NCBI GenBank assembly: GCA_021792755.1
Contig: JAJYUA010000034.1
Location: 1-35,444, forward strand
Direction: 5' to 3'
DNA from: Pseudomonadota bacterium
GTDB taxonomy: Bacteria; Pseudomonadota; Gammaproteobacteria; Steroidobacterales; Steroidobacteraceae
DNA length: 35,444 nucleotides
In this document: positions 3,719-22,873 of the stretch, in pieces
Layout of the letters: each line of letters begins with the position of its first letter
How positions within the stretch are numbered: the stretch's first letter is position 1
Notes under the pieces: generated by a model
Seen by the model: only the letters and a program-made list of their open reading frames with translations
Told to the model about the DNA's origin: nothing
Databases searched by the model: none
Program-made: the position numbers and the translations under genes

Positions 3719-5302
3719 TCATCGTGCGTGGCTCGCTTGCGATGAGGCTGCCGGAGGTGGTTGTTCCGCCAGCCGTCTTTTGTTGACTTTGCCATTCGAG
3801 GTTCTCGGCAGGCTCTCGCACAGGATCACTTGGGTGGGCACCATGTATGATTCGAGATGCTTCGCGCTCGTGGCGCGAATGGAGTGCGCGGTCAAGCCGG
3901 AATCCGCAACCACGTACGCCCGCACCGCTTCACCGAGCAGCGGATCGGGAACGCCGACGACGGCTGCCTCGCGCACCCCGGGGATGCGGTGCAGGGCAGT
4001 TTCCACTTCGACCGGGCTCACCTTCTCGCCCCGGGTCTTGATGATGTCGTCGGTCCGTGCGACGAAGTAAAGAAAGCCCTGCTCGTCCATGCGAAAGAGG
4101 TCGTGGGTGCACAGCACCCGCTCGCCGGGGAGCTTGCCGGGCTTGAGCATCTCTGCGCTGAGATCCGGCCGGTTCCAATAGCCGGCCATGACGTGCGGGC
4201 CGCGGACGTAGAGGATACCGGTCTCGCCGGGCGGGACCGGCTTGCCTTCCTCGCTGAGCAGGTAGACCTCGGTGCCCGGGATCGCCTTGCCCACCGAGCC
4301 CGGCTTGGCGTCGATGAGCCCAGGGTCCAGGTAGCTCACGCGCTTGCACTCCGTGAGGCCGTACATCTTGTAGATCCGCGCATGGGGGAAGACCTCGCGC
4401 AGGCCGCCCACGAACGGCTCCGGCAGCGCCGCCGCGGTATTGGTGAGGCGTGCGACCGAGGGGAAGCAGAGGGGCGCGCGCCGGTGGGCGGCGAGCAGGG
4501 TGGCGAAGATCGTCGGCACGCCCGGGAAAACCGTCACGCGCTCCTCGCGCATGCGGCCTAGCACCTGGCCGAGGAAGGTGAAGGACCGCTCGAGCACCAG
4601 GCAGGCCCCGAGCGCGACGGCCATGAGGAGCTGGTACAGGCCGTAATCGAACGACAGCGGCAGCACACAGAGGATCCGCTCGTCCTGCGTGAGGCACAGG
4701 TACTCGATGAGACTGCCGACGGTGAACACCATCGCCTGGTGCGTCTGCATGACGCCCTTCGGACTGCCGGTGCTGCCCGAGGTATAGAGGATCGCGGCGA
4801 GATCCAGGGGGATCACCGGCACGGGCTCTGCCAGCGGCTGTGTGCGCTCGAGGGCGGCCTCGAGCGAGTCGGCGCCCTTCGCCTCGCCCGCGCACAGCAG
4901 CGCCGGGGGCGCCTCGAGCCCCCGAAGCGCCTCCTCGAACGCCGGCCGAAGCGCGCTGTCCGTGACCAGCGCGCGCGCGCCACAGTCCTCGAGGATGAAC
5001 CGCAGCTTGCCCGCCCTGGTCTGCGGATTGACGAGGACGAAGACACCGCCGGCGATCAGCGTGCCAAAGATCGCCGCGGCGCAGGTCGCGCAGTTCTCCA
5101 GGTAGATGGCGACCCGATCGCCCCGGCCGACGCCGCGGGCGCGCAATGCGCCGGCCATCCGCTGCGCAGCGTCAAGGAGCTGCCCGAAGGTATGGGCGCG
5201 TCCGTCGGCAACCAACGCGGCTCTCTCCCGCGCATCCGGGTCGCCGCGTTGCAACAGGCTCTCATGCAGCAGGCGTTGGGCTTTCAGGGGTTTCTCGGCC
5301 AC
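3719..5302 (-). CDS. Acyl-AMP ligase, exopolysaccharide-associated
   Basis: A 527-residue AMP-forming ligase of the ANL superfamily. It should adenylate a carboxylic acid and pass it to a thiol, very probably the phosphopantetheine of the carrier protein encoded divergently next door. Signatures are the P-loop LYTSGSTGSPKGVMQT near residue 171, MYGLTECKRVSY in the acyl pocket region, DLFRMDEQGFLYFVARTDD at the hinge, and the catalytic lysine in PRTSNGKVNKRRL near the C-terminus. Translation starts at a GTG with GGAGG seven bases upstream. It resembles the AMP-forming ligase family associated with exosortase A loci. The acid substrate cannot be deduced; it could be an amino, hydroxy or fatty acid that decorates the glycan. 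It is the first gene of the leftward group. Confidence 0.9.
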   Translation of the reverse strand: MAEKPLKAQRLLHESLLQRGDPDARERAALVADGRAHTFGQLLDAAQRMAGALRARGVGRGDRVAIYLENCATCAAAIFGTLIAGGVFVLVNPQTRAGKLRFILEDCGARALVTDSALRPAFEEALRGLEAPPALLCAGEAKGADSLEAALERTQPLAEPVPVIPLDLAAILYTSGSTGSPKGVMQTHQAMVFTVGSLIEYLCLTQDERILCVLPLSFDYGLYQLLMAVALGACLVLERSFTFLGQVLGRMREERVTVFPGVPTIFATLLAAHRRAPLCFPSVARLTNTAAALPEPFVGGLREVFPHARIYKMYGLTECKRVSYLDPGLIDAKPGSVGKAIPGTEVYLLSEEGKPVPPGETGILYVRGPHVMAGYWNRPDLSAEMLKPGKLPGERVLCTHDLFRMDEQGFLYFVARTDDIIKTRGEKVSPVEVETALHRIPGVREAAVVGVPDPLLGEAVRAYVVADSGLTAHSIRATSAKHLESYMVPTQVILCESLPRTSNGKVNKRRLAEQPPPAASSQASHAR

Positions 5303-17385: not shown

Positions 17386-18798
17386 TTGCGTATCCGCGTT
17401 TTTGGACACTACGTTTACGCCTCGATCGCGCTGCTCGCGATCATCGAGGCCCTGGTGTTCTTTGGGGCGGTCTATGGCGCGGCCCTGATCCGCTTCCACG
17501 GCTCGCTGCGCTTCCTGTCGGATCCCCCTGCGGACCTGAGCGGGGCGTTGTGGCCGCGGGCGCTGCTGTTCAGTGTCGTCACGATGCTGTGTCTGCTCGC
17601 CTTCGGCCTCTACAGCTCGCGCCAGCGAGCGAGGCTGCTCGGGATGGCGCTCCGGATCATCCTGGCGGTGCTGATGGCCTTCGCGGTGGCCTCGGCGCTC
17701 TTGTACCTCATCCCGAATCTGTGGATCGGCCGCGGAGTCGTGGGCCTGGCCGCCCTGGGCGCATTTCTGGGGATGATCGTCTCGCGCACGGTCTTCTCCA
17801 GGGTGGTGGACGAGAACGTCTTCAAGCGCCGTGTGCTGATCTATGGGGCCGGCCGCTCGGCCGCCACGATCGCGGAGCTGCGCCGCCGCGCGGACCGGCG
17901 GGGCTTTCACGTGGTCGGGTTCGTGCCGGCCGCGGGGGAGGTGTTGGCGGTGGACGGCAGTCGGGTGCTTGCGCGCAAAGGCTCCCTGGTCGAGCTCTGC
18001 CAGGAGCACGATGCGGCGGAGGTGGTCGTCGCCATGGACGACCGGCGGCGGGGCTTTCCGATCTCCGAGCTGCTCAACTGCCGGCTCGCCGGGGTGGACG
18101 TCACCGAGCAGTTGACTTTCCTCGAGCGCGAGACCGGCCGGGTCCGCCTCGACATCCTCAATCCCGCCTGGCTCATCTTCGGCGAGGGCTTCAGGCGCAA
18201 TGCGGTGCGGCGGCTGACGGCGCGGACGCTCGATCTGTCCGCCGCGCTCGTGGTGCTCGCGCTCGCCTGGCCGTTCATGCTGCTCACGGCGCTCGCCATC
18301 AAGATCGAGGACGGCCTCAGGGCGCCGGTGCTGTACCGCCAGCGCCGCGTGGGGCTTCTCGGGGAGCCGTTCGAGCTCATGAAGTTCCGCAGCATGCGCG
18401 TCGATGCCGAGAAGGACGGCCAGGCCCGGTGGGCGTCGAAGGGCGATCCGCGCGTCACCAGGGTGGGGGCCTTCATCCGCAAGGTGCGGCTCGATGAGCT
18501 GCCGCAGCTGCTGAACGTTCTGCGCGGGCAGATGAGCTTCGTCGGGCCGCGCCCGGAGCGGCCGGAGTTCGTCGCGGAGCTCGCCGAGCGCATCCCGTAC
18601 TACATCGAGCGCCACTCGGTGAAGCCGGGCCTCACCGGCTGGGCGCAGCTGTGCTATCCCTACGGGTCATCGGAGCAGGATGCGCTGGAGAAGCTGCAAT
18701 ACGACCTGTATTACGTGAAGAACAACACGCTGCTGTTCGATCTGGCGATCCTGGTGCAGACCGCCGAGGTGGTGTTTCTCGGCAAAGGGGCGCGCTGA
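17386..18798 (+). CDS. Undecaprenyl-phosphate sugar-1-phosphate transferase, exopolysaccharide type
   Basis: A 470-residue polyprenol-phosphate sugar transferase that would start each repeat unit by moving a sugar-1-phosphate from a UDP-sugar to undecaprenyl phosphate. About four N-terminal hydrophobic segments (residues 10-135) are followed by a Rossmann-like domain (RVLIYGAGRSAATIAEL), another membrane segment near residue 285, and the catalytic domain with YRQRRVGLLG, ELMKFRSMRVDAE, RKVRLDELPQLLNVLRG and SFVGPRPERPEF. It resembles sugar transferases of the PEP-CTERM-associated group. It starts at a TTG with GGACAGGGGGGA just upstream. Its last 64 bases and 19 bases beyond the stop are repeated exactly 2,006 bp downstream, so its 3' end may have been supplied by an inserted element. 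Confidence 0.92.
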   Translation: MRIRVFGHYVYASIALLAIIEALVFFGAVYGAALIRFHGSLRFLSDPPADLSGALWPRALLFSVVTMLCLLAFGLYSSRQRARLLGMALRIILAVLMAFAVASALLYLIPNLWIGRGVVGLAALGAFLGMIVSRTVFSRVVDENVFKRRVLIYGAGRSAATIAELRRRADRRGFHVVGFVPAAGEVLAVDGSRVLARKGSLVELCQEHDAAEVVVAMDDRRRGFPISELLNCRLAGVDVTEQLTFLERETGRVRLDILNPAWLIFGEGFRRNAVRRLTARTLDLSAALVVLALAWPFMLLTALAIKIEDGLRAPVLYRQRRVGLLGEPFELMKFRSMRVDAEKDGQARWASKGDPRVTRVGAFIRKVRLDELPQLLNVLRGQMSFVGPRPERPEFVAELAERIPYYIERHSVKPGLTGWAQLCYPYGSSEQDALEKLQYDLYYVKNNTLLFDLAILVQTAEVVFLGKGAR

Positions 18799-18817
18799 GC
18801 GCAGCGCGCCTGCGGTG
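18735..18817 (+). repeat. 83-bp direct repeat, left copy (3' end of sugar-transferase gene)
   Basis: These 83 bases are identical to 20741-20823. They code for the last 20 residues of the sugar transferase (ending AEVVFLGKGAR) plus its stop and 19 bases of flank. With one mismatch the match extends about 8 bases further left. A perfect duplication of a gene's 3' end on both sides of a foreign-looking insert is the usual footprint of site-specific integration into a gene end, this copy being the one rebuilt on the gene. Confidence 0.95.
18790..18809 (+). terminator. GCGCGCT/AGCGCGC hairpin over the sugar-transferase stop
   Basis: A 7-bp perfect stem (GCGCGCT, six-base loop, AGCGCGC) spans the stop codon region of the sugar transferase. 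It is present again at 20796-20815 because it lies inside the 83-bp repeat. No T-run follows. It could be a transcription end signal or a structure recognised during integration of the inserted unit. Confidence 0.4.
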
Positions 18818-18857
18818 CGGCCGGGCCGGCCGCTCCTGATGCGGTATCATCCACCTC

Positions 18858-19289
18858 ATGCGAGCCCGTCGTACACCCAATCCCAAGCGGCGTATCCGGT
18901 CGATGCCGGCAGCGGCTCGGGAGCGCGCGCGGCTTGAGGAGCTCGCGGGCCTGGCATCCTATGGGGGCAATGCGGAACACAAGCGCAATCCTGGCGACTT
19001 CGGGCTGAATCCGCCCAGTCTTCCGCGGCAAGGCAAGACCTTGTGCGATGAATCGGCGGTTTTCAAGCGCAGTGATGCACTGACTTTATTGCGCGCAGGG
19101 TTTCTGCGAGGGCTGACGAGCGTCCAGGAACGGCACGGCTGGCCGCAGAACGTGTGGGCCGTGGCGCCGAACGGCATTCCCCTGGAGGCCATGCTCGAGA
19201 ATCCCTCGACGGGCGCGTATCACGGGTATCCGATGCAGGAGGACGATCCACTCGCCGAGGAGGTGCTCGAGCGATGGAGACGCTCATGA
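18858..19289 (+). CDS. 143-residue protein of unknown function, first gene of the inserted pair
   Basis: I cannot assign a function. The N-terminal 30 residues are very basic (RARRTPNPKRRIRS) and might touch nucleic acid, or the true start may be the ATG at 18903 (MPAAARERARL). The rest looks like a compact conserved domain. It includes HKRNPGDFGLNPPSLPRQGK then LCDE; a helical stretch FKRSDALTLLRAGFLRGL; QNVWAVAPNGIPLEAML; and YHGYPMQEDDPLAEEVLERW. I have an impression of similar small proteins elsewhere but cannot verify it. The stop overlaps the start of the next gene (ATGA), so the two proteins are probably made in a set ratio and act together. The gene begins 59 bp after the sugar-transferase stop and could be read from its promoter or from a weak one near 18,843 (TATCAT). 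Confidence 0.75.
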   Translation: MRARRTPNPKRRIRSMPAAARERARLEELAGLASYGGNAEHKRNPGDFGLNPPSLPRQGKTLCDESAVFKRSDALTLLRAGFLRGLTSVQERHGWPQNVWAVAPNGIPLEAMLENPSTGAYHGYPMQEDDPLAEEVLERWRRS

Positions 19290-20641
19290 CGACGACGTTT
19301 GCCATCCACAGGCAGTGGGAGTCGGCGCTGCACGAGTCGCCGGAAGTGCGAGATACAGTTGCCTCGCTGAAGATCGTGGTCGGTAGGGACGTGATCACGC
19401 GTAACGAGGACGAGTGGGCCCAAACCGTCCGCGATGAGGTGCGCGTGTCGGCCTACCCCCTCGCCCTATGGCTCGCCTCGTCCTGGTGGCGCCTTCGATG
19501 GGAGCCGTTGCCGAAGGCCGTTCCTGACCGGTCATGGCGCATGGCTCATGAGCTTGTCGCCGCCGGCTATGGCTACGTCTGGCCAAGGATGGTTTTCGCG
19601 TCAGATGGAGAGGTCGTGAACGTGTGGGCCGTGCCGTCCAGGCCGGATTCCCGGGCGGTCGTCCGCTACCTCACCCACTCCTGTCACGCCGTGTCTGCTT
19701 TGGACTTCGAGCGTACCGTCGATGAGTTCATCAATGGTGTTTTGGCGCGCCTGGACGCCGCCGGGATCGGGCGCACAGCGCTGCACGATCTTTGGAGGGA
19801 GATCACCGAAGAGCGCCGGGAAGCTTCGCTCACCGTGCAGCGCCGCCTGGAGGCATTGCTCGGCTTCGATCCGGATGAGTCTCCTGAAGGGCTCCTCACC
19901 GCGTTCGAGAGCCTCATTCCGCGGGCCGGGCTCTCCGCGCTCGATGAGATCGCCCCTGTGTGTGCGTCCGCAAATCCTGCGGGGATGCTGAAGCAGGTGC
20001 TCTGCGCGGCTGACGCCGAGGGTCTGAAGGGGCGCATCGCCCTGCCTCGGGAAACGATTGATTCGGCGACGACCCTGCCCGAGCCGGGTTGGCGAAAAGG
20101 CCGGGAGTTGGCCAGGAGGTTGCGGCGCTCTCTGGGTTTGAATGGTGCAGCGGTGCCCGACGGCGTTCTCTGCGGATTGCTGGGACTCGCCACCGAGCGA
20201 GCGATGGATCTGCAGGGCGCGGCTCGGCCGGTATTGGCCATGGCGGTGCGCGAGAAGGCCGGGGAAGAGTTGAAGTTTGTCCTGCGCAGGCGCAATCGCC
20301 ATGGCCGTCGCTTCGAGCTGGCGCGCTTCCTGTGCGACTATGTCATTGCCGGTGAGGCGGACCACTGGCTGCCCGTGAGCGATGCGAAAACGTCCCGGCA
20401 ACGGACTCAACGGGCTTTTGCGGCGGAATTCCTCTGTCCCGTCGAAGCGCTCGAGGCGTTCATGGCGGGTGATTTTTCGATGGACGCGGTGGAGGAGGCT
20501 GCGGAGCGGTTCGAGGTCGGGCCCGCCGCGGTACAAGCACAATTGGTGAACAATCGGCTGCTCCCGTCCCAGGTATTGACGGAATACGGCGGTGGAGTCG
20601 ACCTGCCGTATTTTCACTTGCCGCCGCAGGTTGACACCTAG
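19286..20641 (+). CDS. ImmA/IrrE-like protein with degenerate metal site
   Basis: A 451-residue protein. The C-terminal third resembles the ImmA/IrrE (COG2856) metallopeptidase family: RRFELARFLCDYVIAG near residue 341 sits where members have a RRFTLAHELGH-type motif, and RTQRAFAAEFLCPVEAL near residue 374 matches the usual E..AN.FAAELLMP helix. Both zinc-binding histidines and the catalytic glutamate of HExxH are absent, so it should not be an active protease of the known type. The first 330 residues are helical and unassigned (RTVDEFINGVLARLDAAGIG, FDPDESPEGLL). The ATG at 19286 overlaps the upstream stop; an ATG at 19274 is possible. ImmA/IrrE proteins commonly act with repressors, antitoxins or mobile elements, so a toxin-antitoxin, anti-repressor or defence role is plausible. 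Confidence 0.78.
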   Translation: MTTTFAIHRQWESALHESPEVRDTVASLKIVVGRDVITRNEDEWAQTVRDEVRVSAYPLALWLASSWWRLRWEPLPKAVPDRSWRMAHELVAAGYGYVWPRMVFASDGEVVNVWAVPSRPDSRAVVRYLTHSCHAVSALDFERTVDEFINGVLARLDAAGIGRTALHDLWREITEERREASLTVQRRLEALLGFDPDESPEGLLTAFESLIPRAGLSALDEIAPVCASANPAGMLKQVLCAADAEGLKGRIALPRETIDSATTLPEPGWRKGRELARRLRRSLGLNGAAVPDGVLCGLLGLATERAMDLQGAARPVLAMAVREKAGEELKFVLRRRNRHGRRFELARFLCDYVIAGEADHWLPVSDAKTSRQRTQRAFAAEFLCPVEALEAFMAGDFSMDAVEEAAERFEVGPAAVQAQLVNNRLLPSQVLTEYGGGVDLPYFHLPPQVDT

Positions 20642-20740
20642 GCCCCGGTGCGCCGACCCGGCCTGCCGCAGTCGCTCGAAGCGCTGCGCAGCCGGACGGG
20701 CTTCGCCGCTCCGCGGCAGCAGCGCCCGGCGCGCGCTGCG

Positions 20741-20823
20741 GTTCGATCTGGCGATCCTGGTGCAGACCGCCGAGGTGGTGTTTCTCGGCAAAGGGGCGCG
20801 CTGAGCGCAGCGCGCCTGCGGTG
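20741..20823 (+). repeat. 83-bp direct repeat, right copy
   Basis: Identical over all 83 bases to 18735-18817. Here the sequence coding the sugar transferase C-terminus is separated from its gene, preceded by unrelated GC-rich sequence and followed by the tail of the oppositely oriented small gene at 20836. If the insert entered by site-specific recombination at the gene end, this is the displaced original 3' end beside the original flank. Confidence 0.95.
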
Positions 20824-20835
20824 TCAGGTTAGACT

Positions 20836-21018
20836 CTACTCGGCCGCGCCGTCCGGATCCTGCGCCGCCTTCACGCGCGTCCTCCAGACCTCGAAAGGAT
20901 CCCACGCGCTCGAGCGCTGGGGAAGCATCCGCTGCCGGCTCTGTTCGGTGAGCGATCCGCGCGAGGCATTGCGGGTCGTCGATGGGCTGTGAGCCAACCG
21001 TTTGGTTTCAGCTTTCAT
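20836..21018 (-). CDS. Small 60-residue protein of unknown function
   Basis: A short leftward gene ending 13 bp from the right 83-bp repeat. The C-terminal block SAWDPFEVWRTRVKAA has the look of a conserved motif seen in small proteobacterial proteins of unknown role; the N-terminal half is basic and serine/threonine-rich. There is no signal peptide or membrane segment. It is probably native to the chromosome and was the convergent neighbour of the sugar-transferase gene before the insert arrived. No function is proposed. Confidence 0.5.
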   Translation of the reverse strand: MKAETKRLAHSPSTTRNASRGSLTEQSRQRMLPQRSSAWDPFEVWRTRVKAAQDPDGAAE

Positions 21019-21352
21019 CCGTCTCGTTCCTCCATCTCGATATCACGTCGTTCCCAGGCGGACGCCTGTCTCGCCGCCGCCGCGTCCCGGATCAATTGCC
21101 GGTGCCCGAGCGGGGCGGGGAGTTTAACTCATTATGTCGTCGCTGCCACAGTTCCCGTATAACGCCGGGATGTGAAGGCCGCATGACGTCGCGGGGCAGC
21201 TACGCTCGCCGATGCACGCATCTTCGCGCGGTGGGGTGCGGATTTGTCATGCGGCGCATCATTCTGTGAACTGCGTCACGCCGCCCGCCCGGGCCCGCCG
21301 CTTGCGGCGGCTCCCGCCCCACCTCTGCCGCCGGCGCCACACGGTGCCCGGG
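21019..21352. other. Gap without a gene
   Basis: No convincing coding sequence in either strand. The frames that are open have no recognisable domains. The part from 21,060 to 21,250 is mixed in composition and could hold the promoter of the small leftward gene. The rest becomes strongly GC-rich as it approaches the tandem repeat. Confidence 0.5.
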
Positions 21353-21460
21353 GCGGGCCGCACCGCCCTGGCGGGCCGCACCGCCCTGGCGGGCCGCACC
21401 GCCCTGGCGGGCCGCACCGCCCCGGCGGGCCGCACCGCCCCGGCGGGCCGCACCGCCCCG
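21353..21460. repeat. Six tandem copies of an 18-bp unit
   Basis: The unit is GCGGGCCGCACCGCCCTG. Copies 1-3 end in CTG and copies 4-6 in CCG; otherwise all six are identical and in perfect register, followed by a partial copy. It lies 12 bp beyond the glrR stop, so it is in the 3' untranslated part of that operon. Because 18 is a multiple of three it stays open in several frames (for example GGPHRP repeats), but no gene with a credible start covers it. The block of single-base variants shows copying by slippage or unequal exchange. Confidence 0.93.
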
Positions 21461-21472
21461 GCGGCCGGGTGT

Positions 21473-22873
21473 CTATTTGTCCCTTTGTTTGAACTCGTCG
21501 GCGGTCAGCTGGTGGCGCGCGAGCAGCTTGTAGAAATCCGTGCGGTTGCGCTTGGCGAGCCGCGCCGCCTGCGTGACGTTGCCGGCGGTGATCTGCAGGA
21601 TCTGCGAGAGGTAGCTGCGCGTGAACTCATCGCGCGCCTCATCGAAGGAGGGCAGGTGCCCGGCGGTGCCGCCCAAGGACTGCTGCACCAGCTCCACGGG
21701 GATGATGGGGGTCTGCGAGAGCGCGACGTTCTGCCGCACGACGTTGTAGAGCTGGCGGATGTTGCCCGGCCAGTCGGCGGTGGCGAGCAGCTCGACCGCC
21801 TCGGGCGCGTAGATCTTGCGCGTGCCGGCCTCCTCGGCGATCTGCGCCAGGAAGTGCGCCACCAGCAGCGGGATGTCCTCGCGGCGGCGGCTGAGCGAGG
21901 GCATCTCGATGTGCACCACGTTCAGCCGATAGTACAGGTCCTCGCGGAACTGCCCCTCGGCGAGCATCTGGCGAAGGTCGCGGTGGGTGGCGGAGATGAC
22001 CCTGACGTTCACCGCCATGGCGCTCGTTCCGCCGACGGGGCGGATGAGCCCCTCCTGCAGCACCCGCAACAGCTTCACTTGCAGCCGAAGCGGCATGTCG
22101 CCGATCTCATCGAGCATCAGCGTGCCGCCGTCGGCGGCCCGAAAGAGGCCGTCGTGGGCGCTGGTGGCGCCCGTGAAGGCGCCCCGCTCGTGCCCGAACA
22201 GCTCCGATTCCAACAGGCTCTCGGCCATGGCGCCGCAGTTGATCGCGACGAAGGGGTGGCCGTGGCGGGGACTTGCGAGATGGATGGCGCGCGCGAGCAG
22301 CTCCTTGCCGGTGCCGCTTTCCCCGGTGATCAGCACGCGCGCATCGGTGCCGGCCACCATGTGCGCCTGGGCGAGCTTCTCCTCCATGACCGCCGAGCGG
22401 GTGATGATGCCGGCGCGCCAGTCCTCGTCGGAAGCGCCGAAGCCGGAGATCCTGAGCGCCTTCTGCACCTGGTCGAGCAGCTCCTGCTTGTCCACGGGCT
22501 TGGTGAGGAAGCCGAAGGCGCCCATCTGCGTCGCCTGCACCGCATCGGGAATGGTGCCGTGGGCGGTGAGCAGGATCACCTTCAGGCCCGGCCAGCGCAC
22601 CTGCAGCTCCTTCAGCAGCCCGATGCCGTCCATGGGCTCCATGCGCAGGTCGGTGATCACGAGGTCGGGCCGGAAGCGCCCGGCGGCTCCGAGCGCCTGC
22701 GGGGCGCTCTCGACGGCCTCCACGTCGTAGCTCTCCGCCCGCAGGCGGATGGTGAGCAGCCTGAGCAGCCCCGGGTCATCGTCGACGAGCAGGATGCGGG
22801 CCTTGCGCCGCCCGCAGTTCGTGGGCAGGGTCGTGCGCGGCTCGTGCTGCAAAGCGGTGGCGGAATGGGTCAT
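21473..22873 (-). CDS. glrR: Sigma-54-dependent response regulator GlrR
   Basis: A 466-residue NtrC-type activator, partner of the sensor kinase encoded two genes upstream. The receiver domain has the acidic pair in ILLVDDD, the phosphorylation site Asp75 in LVITDLRM, and the switch lysine in FLTKPVDKQEL. The AAA+ domain has Walker A GESGTGKE near residue 183 and the sigma-54 contact loop GAFTGA near residue 231. The C-terminal helix-turn-helix is GNVTQAARLAKRNRTDFYKLL. In enteric bacteria GlrR (QseF) controls glmY, a small RNA that tunes amino-sugar synthesis, and cell-envelope genes. Target promoters were not found in the window. Its ATG overlaps the stop of the lipoprotein gene (ATGA). The kinase-lipoprotein-regulator order is the one seen in E. 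coli. Confidence 0.92.
   Translation of the reverse strand: MTHSATALQHEPRTTLPTNCGRRKARILLVDDDPGLLRLLTIRLRAESYDVEAVESAPQALGAAGRFRPDLVITDLRMEPMDGIGLLKELQVRWPGLKVILLTAHGTIPDAVQATQMGAFGFLTKPVDKQELLDQVQKALRISGFGASDEDWRAGIITRSAVMEEKLAQAHMVAGTDARVLITGESGTGKELLARAIHLASPRHGHPFVAINCGAMAESLLESELFGHERGAFTGATSAHDGLFRAADGGTLMLDEIGDMPLRLQVKLLRVLQEGLIRPVGGTSAMAVNVRVISATHRDLRQMLAEGQFREDLYYRLNVVHIEMPSLSRRREDIPLLVAHFLAQIAEEAGTRKIYAPEAVELLATADWPGNIRQLYNVVRQNVALSQTPIIPVELVQQSLGGTAGHLPSFDEARDEFTRSYLSQILQITAGNVTQAARLAKRNRTDFYKLLARHQLTADEFKQRDK

Follow-up and report, generated by a model that had tools for sequence, protein, structure and literature searches.

Results

A two-gene unit lies between direct repeats at the end of epsB

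The stretch of DNA analysed here, called the window throughout, comprises 35,444 nucleotides from a genome of the Steroidobacteraceae and contains an epsB gene of an exopolysaccharide (EPS) locus, the product of which matches the TIGR03013 model of XrtA/PEP-CTERM glycosyltransferases (E 7.5e-172). The gene is followed by a unit of two genes, P1 and P2, enclosed by a perfect 83-bp direct repeat (18735-18817 and 20741-20823). An earlier reading of the window made from the sequence only had described the left copy as consisting of the final 64 bp of the epsB gene and 19 bp beyond it, recurring 2,006 bp downstream, with two cargo genes in between. Sequence comparison found this to be exact, with the epsB stop codon ending at 18798, and both open reading frames are present. 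A single mismatch appears between the copies if the comparison is widened to 90 bp, and a search of the whole genome (57 contigs) reported two matches to the 83-bp sequence, both within the window. The 1,923 bp between the repeat copies (18818-20740) hold P1 and P2 only. The ATG of P2 overlaps the stop codon of P1 by 4 bp (ATGA), while an alternative start of P2 at 19274 would lengthen the protein to 455 aa.

A scan of the window detected no tRNA, and an RNA-family search at the insertion site gave no match. Of the 25 longest inverted pairs in the list, one alone joined the two unit ends, and this was a self-complementary hairpin that both repeat copies contain. Since the duplications described below are long and variable, and this hairpin is the only such inverted pair, the unit does not resemble a DDE transposon or insertion sequence, which would show terminal inverted repeats and a short duplication of fixed length.

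The unit is an insertion that left epsB whole

When P2 was searched for in 99 genomes including the window's own, a strong match was obtained in one of the 98 others, G003, which represents a second species of the genus (88% identity); three more rows were marginal (E 4e-4 to 9e-4). G003 carries the P1-P2 pair at the identical site, within a 213/214-bp direct repeat whose copies are 99% identical. Five genomes of the same genus show the empty site at six loci (G030, G006, G011, G020 on two contigs, and G023). There, the end of epsB is followed by the DNA found at the right flank in the window, part of the regulator gene begins 449-484 bp further on, and P2 was not found in these five genomes, some of which are incomplete. 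In G004 and G012 the end of epsB is separated from the common flank by about 1.23 kb. An alignment of the relatives across the window's site, the one family site that this comparison covers, shows one gene end directly beside the flank. These observations confirm that the unit is a real insertion beside epsB, with the gene left whole, and so bear out the proposal of the sequence-only reading that an insertion had rebuilt the gene end and that relatives might retain an empty site. Its own caveat, that the second copy might be an assembly artefact, is unlikely to apply because G003 shares the insertion, its place and a longer repeat.

Over the 83 bp, the two copies of the window do not differ at all and those of G003 do so at a single position. 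Six positions distinguish the window genome from G003 but not the two copies inside either genome; the repeat copies have evolved in concert. Divergence between the two genomes is about 10% in the unit and about 9% at the end of epsB, and because these values resemble each other the simplest reading is one old insertion followed by gene conversion between the repeat copies, two independent insertions at the same base being less likely. The two genomes differ in the 5′ part of copy 2: in the window, 83 bp of repeat come after a 49-bp stretch that lies behind the unit tail (20685-20733) and has no DNA match in G003, whereas the repeat of G003 measures 213/214 bp.

The features of the locus are collected in Table 1. 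The flank between copy 2 and the sigma-54 regulator also contains a GC-rich 18-bp tandem repeat in about six copies (21334-21477).

Table 1. Features in and around the inserted unit (window coordinates)
Feature	Position	Strand	Remark
epsB-type glycosyltransferase (TIGR03013, XrtA/PEP-CTERM system)	17386..18798	+	target gene, intact
Target duplication, copy 1 (64-bp end of epsB + 19 bp)	18735..18817	+	
Hairpin within repeat	18789..18810; again 20795-20816 in copy 2	.	probable terminator-like end of epsB
Unit left end: P1 leader, 40 bp	18818..18857	+	DNA match to G003 begins at 18831
P1, 143 aa	18858..19289	+	no Pfam family; proposed RNase toxin
P2, 451 aa	19286..20641	+	CdiI-like N-terminal domain and IrrE/CapP-like domain lacking HExxH; proposed antitoxin and sensor
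Unit right end: 99-bp tail	20642..20740	+	
Target duplication, copy 2 (gene-end fragment)	20741..20823	+	213/214 bp in G003
Original right flank of epsB	20824..21472	.	adjoins epsB in relatives lacking the unit
Sigma-54 response regulator of the EPS locus	21473..22873	-	DNA of this gene lies to the right of epsB at empty sites

Related units are bracketed by direct repeats more often than random intervals

A pattern-based scan of the genomes of 84,980 species yielded 184 P1 relatives; the 80 best of them were analysed together with one from viral contigs. P2 follows P1 in all 81 loci found in this way by P1 (a few are cut by a contig end). To judge from the record titles, the hosts of P1 relatives include Pseudomonadota, Acidobacteria, Chlorobi, Planctomycetes and cyanobacteria. 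One relative was found in viral contigs and five in plasmids (29-57% identity); as 50,697 phage records contained none, carriage of the unit by phages was rejected. On a plasmid of Massilia sp. H6 (L189:5001-6655) the P1-P2 relatives adjoin dptH, a gene of phosphorothioation-dependent restriction, and the annotated start of P1 appears too short.

Bracketing repeats were first counted with upstream windows of up to 5 kb, in 73 of the 81 loci (at least 300 bp on each side, G003 included) and in the first 1,000 of 1,560 random intervals, drawn from 50 loci. Direct repeats occurred in 12/73 loci against 6/1,000 intervals. Since the random upstream windows in this run could be shorter than the real ones, the test was repeated with equal windows, reaching from 2.5 kb upstream of P1 to 300 bp downstream of P2 with a threshold of at least 40 bits, for 61 of the 81 loci and 888 random intervals of the same length from 68 loci. 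Direct repeats then bracketed 11 of the 61 family loci and 10 of the 888 intervals (Fisher p 7e-9, the intervals being non-independent), while inverted repeats were seen at 0/61 loci and in 4/888 intervals. The suggestion of the sequence-only reading that relatives of the cargo might lie between duplicated stretches elsewhere is borne out by these counts. G003 is one of the 11 as well as one of the 12, and the repeat of L051 may be a dispersed one; L089, L095 and L118 are excluded from both counts, the downstream copy lying 0.6 kb from P2 in L095 and 2.1 kb in L118. If the downstream copy was allowed to lie up to 2.5 kb away (at least 45 bits; 59 of 79 loci with at least 1 kb of flank on each side, G003 and L125 left out), the count was 11/59 against 6/113 (p 0.007). 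These 11 include L089, L095, L118 and L051; inverted copies of the L051 repeat occur as well, hence the caveat just given. With 1.5-kb windows, direct repeats were present in 7 of 68 family loci (out of 80, the window and G003 left out) against 10/303 (p 0.02). Most loci of the family have no bracketing repeat; none was seen within the short stretches of L127 and L128, nor in the 10 kb around the L127 unit (L207).

The duplicated stretches range from 22 to 599 bp across the family and their copies are 79-100% alike. The longest, in L081, ends at the stop codon of the duplicated gene, which we read as a GGDEF gene (two of the 118 nearest neighbours of family units match GGDEF). The 371-bp repeat of L090 comes from the 5′ portion of a BrxC/BrxD ATPase gene, those of L101 (112 bp) and L098 (54 bp) from gene interiors. 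The L101 gene is read as ilvC, one of the 118 neighbours matching KARI domains, and the L098 gene tentatively as that of isocitrate dehydrogenase. Other repeats measure 390 bp (L072), 311 bp (L107), 140 bp (L085), 70 bp (L112), 56 bp (L064) and 22 bp (L083). Wherever the gene is readable, the duplicated pieces derive from unrelated genes. The L089 contig has an 86-bp direct repeat (96.5%) at its two ends (1-86 and 4186-4271), where the assembly may have broken off at repeats surrounding the unit.

The block that moves

Five units are 85-92% identical at the DNA level (L081 Zoogloea, L082 Dechloromonas, L084 Rhodocyclus, L086 Accumulibacter and L090 Pseudomonadota) and their flanks are unlike one another, i.e. 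they occupy different sites. The similarity between them ends 45-73 bp ahead of the start of the P1 match on the left and, on the right, at points ranging from 46 bp short of the end of the P2 match to 22 bp beyond it. Because it stops at these limits, the mobile block amounts to about 1.85 kb and comprises the leader with P1 and P2 and hardly anything else. Seven loci have narrow gaps on either side (window, G003, L064, L081, L083, L085 and L112); in these, the repeats enclose 1,853-1,980 bp, in agreement with the boundaries found independently from the near units. Three other near pairs share longer flanks, as expected if they have a common site or more cargo: L086/L089 with 1.3 kb on the left, L056/L069 with 4.5 kb on the left and 1.0 kb on the right, and L107/L118 with about 0.35 kb on the left. 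In L072, L090 and L107 the repeats contain about 1.8-2.3 kb of extra DNA upstream of P1, which in L090 holds metallo-beta-lactamase-like and cupin genes. The repeat-bracketed stretch of L072 (5646-9706) also holds an AAA ATPase of the AAA_15/AAA_21 type upstream of P1, a case suggesting that additional genes may be acquired by such units.

Among the 118 nearest neighbours, there was no integrase or transposase family with more than one match (families with a single matching neighbour were only partly listed). Likewise, no PADLOC model matched more than three of them, although 174 models matched at least one, and an association with defence islands was therefore rejected.

P1 and P2 may resemble toxin and immunity proteins in their predicted folds

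P1 matched no model in Pfam, NCBIfam or PADLOC. For P2, there was no NCBIfam model, a sub-threshold IrrE-like match in Pfam restricted to residues 371-424, and weak matches to RmrA and capP in PADLOC; no integrase or transposase model of the three collections matched either protein. Neither has a significant sequence relative among solved structures. The predicted fold of P1 gave weak matches, 11 of the 12 listed being toxin-antitoxin, contact-dependent inhibition (CDI) or colicin-type entries, and a weak structural likeness to HigB and BrnT and, more generally, to RNase toxins; nothing significant was found for this fold among viral structure models. The residues H41, K42, R57, S88, Y121 and H122 of P1 are invariant. 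The predicted N-terminus of P2 matches a CdiI immunity protein, while its C-terminus is predicted to be of the ImmA/IrrE type and resembles CapP and IrrE. The HExxH motif is missing from all 37 aligned P2 members, and its letters occur anywhere in only one of 120 homologues. At the presumed position of the motif, placed by reading, the aligned members have an invariant FExxR in its stead, and for these reasons P2 is probably not a protease. Taken at face value, the fold models suggest that P1 and P2 form a toxin-antitoxin pair, in which P1 would be the toxin and P2 the antitoxin. P1-P2 would thus appear to represent a toxin-antitoxin family not described before, the antitoxin of which is unusual in that it joins an immunity-like domain to a protease-like one devoid of the catalytic motif.

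Bracketing repeats in other gene families

The 1.5-kb test was also applied to control families, in small samples (22 of 30 HigB, 24 of 30 BrnT and 21 of 28 epsB loci). Direct repeats bracketed 4/22 HigB and 4/24 BrnT toxin loci and none of the 21 epsB loci of relatives. A footprint specific to the P1-P2 family was consequently rejected, the HigB and BrnT rates being not below the 7/68 of this family, and as these rates are comparable the footprint may be common to toxin-antitoxin-type modules. One BrnT locus (L165, and also L205) has a complete gene on one side and, on the other, 242 bp from the interior of that gene with 91% identity; a clean target duplication is not supported for L165, where the downstream DNA of a relative does not match.

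Discussion

We consider P1 and P2 to form a self-contained unit and, most likely, a toxin-antitoxin (addiction) module. On this view the unit was inserted with a long direct duplication of its target, has no recognisable recombinase and probably had its ends joined by host enzymes; we would put the probability of this reading at roughly 0.6. The unit would have entered just downstream of epsB in the common ancestor of the window genome and G003, with a direct target duplication that measures 213/214 bp in G003 and was no shorter than 83 bp. This leaves epsB whole on one side, and the original flank and a gene-end fragment on the other. Host DNA repair or replication might join the unit ends to the target by illegitimate or template-switch joining. 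An alternative route would be the single-crossover integration of a circle bearing a piece of the target. Once in place, the P1-P2 pair would be retained by selection through addiction, being costly to lose.

Restriction-modification units are reportedly inserted with long target duplication, in work attributed to Nobusato in 2000 and Furuta in 2010. A review describes such insertions with long, variable target duplications of the order of 100 bp (PMC3874152), and another paper, which applied plasmid-loss selection to PaeR7I on a temperature-sensitive plasmid, cites insertion with long target duplication for the same systems (PMC3031569). A third, citing Nobusato 2000, compares restriction-modification with toxin-antitoxin systems, both being addictive and apparently mobile (PMC2654758), and a fourth reports that genes moved in Arabidopsis leave a footprint of this type, together with a circle model (PMC2869330). 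The P1-P2 unit resembles the restriction-modification units so described in being a small addiction-type pair that is unlinked to a known mobile element and bracketed by long, variable duplications. It differs in its cargo, which is not a methyltransferase and endonuclease but has toxin- and immunity-like predicted folds, and, set against the restriction-modification cases, its bracketed members span several phyla. Our literature search, which took in titles and abstract openings and had most subscription literature outside it, found no report of toxin-antitoxin modules with such a footprint and recognised no publication naming the P1-P2 pair.

With the type II systems HigBA and BrnTA the unit shares an overlapping gene pair, a small, weakly HigB/BrnT-like protein and a comparable rate of bracketing repeats. 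However, no common sequence family was found, and whereas the antitoxins HigA and BrnA are small, P2 has 451 aa with CdiI-like and IrrE-like parts. In contrast to CdiA-CT/CdiI, the unit has no room for a CdiA-type carrier and P2 possesses the extra IrrE-like domain, the lack of HExxH in turn setting P2 apart from the CapP/IrrE (PprI)/ImmA family. Like integrase-type islands in gene 3′ ends, it leaves a whole gene end and direct repeats on both sides, but there is neither an integrase nor a constant core, and the repeats vary in length, sequence and position. The P1-P2 locus hence fits the pattern of insertion with long target duplication better than that of an integrase-type satellite.

The sequence-only reading had suggested that the unit may be a satellite mobilised in trans, with the hairpin as a possible part of the recognition site. 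Spelled out, this would be a site-specific element integrated by an integrase acting in trans, with the gene end and its GCGCGC hairpin as attachment site. The whole gene end and the strong hairpin inside the repeat would agree with this, and the notion of an insertion that keeps the gene end whole has survived. The satellite itself has not: the duplicated stretches come from unrelated genes where these are readable, differ in length, sequence and position, and have no constant core. For an integrase, 213 or 599 bp would make a very long core. Neither P1 nor P2 is matched by an integrase model, the window has no tRNA, and GCGCGC occurs in five of 15 duplicated stretches, a number that counts the window's own site twice because it was taken from two genomes; the hairpin itself reads more like a terminator at the end of epsB. 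In the absence of a constant core and an integrase, we reject the satellite and its recognition site as highly improbable. If epsB and the pair beside it had been duplicated in tandem and part of the product then deleted, this would yield the same final structure of gene, pair and gene fragment, and L101 and L098, which show only an interior gene piece downstream of the full gene, would be in line with it. Such a history is nevertheless improbable, as it requires at least two steps at each of many loci, does not readily account for a copy 2 that ends cleanly at the original flank in the window or for a repeat ending at a stop codon in L081, and sits poorly with the rarity of such repeats in random intervals of the same loci.

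Rather unlikely, too, is the idea that the repeat represents the homology arm of a circle which carried the pair with a target piece from a donor strain and integrated by a single crossover. This would account for long, variable repeats and intact genes, and mismatches between copies lean towards the third codon position in L081 (16/27), L090 (15/22), L107 (16/29) and L118 (25/43). The lean is weak or absent in L101 (11/23), L098 (3/7), L085 (2/8), L072 (2/8) and L045 (0/1), however, and it is also expected if one copy is under selection; being present in four of nine repeats, it fits on-the-spot duplication and a donor-borne arm alike. The copies within the window genome (G000) and within G003 are near-identical, though gene conversion could produce this, and the circle leaves the first joining of the pair to each gene piece unaccounted for. 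A different kind of alternative concerns the function of the pair, which might be a two-gene stress or anti-phage regulator that is mobile for other reasons. CapP and IrrE, which the C-terminus of P2 resembles, are regulators, and some neighbours relate to defence (BrxC/D in L090, dptH on the Massilia plasmid). We regard this as possible but still on the unlikely side, given the toxin-antitoxin, CDI or colicin-type entries that dominate the weak fold matches of P1, the CdiI-like N-terminus of P2 and the strict pairing of P1 and P2 with a 4-bp overlap.

Beyond this family, one could speculate that toxin-antitoxin-type modules at large, from various families, are recombinase-free mobile units that enter chromosomes by long target duplication and so preserve one complete copy of the gene, the repeats then recombining to allow exact excision, amplification and re-entry. 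In its boldest form, this general reading would have the RNase and antitoxin proteins of the module help to create the joints. We think such a generalization rather unlikely to hold.

Preferring an addiction-type unit joined by host enzymes, we see the main interest of the P1-P2 family in the open question of how small addiction modules spread among chromosomes without a transposase. With about 12 marked insertions, unit ends that can be defined and relatives that are empty at the window's site, the family opens the mechanism of joining to comparative study. The footprint described for restriction-modification units is here extended to an apparent new toxin-antitoxin family, and small addiction-type gene pairs may thus move without a mobility enzyme of their own.

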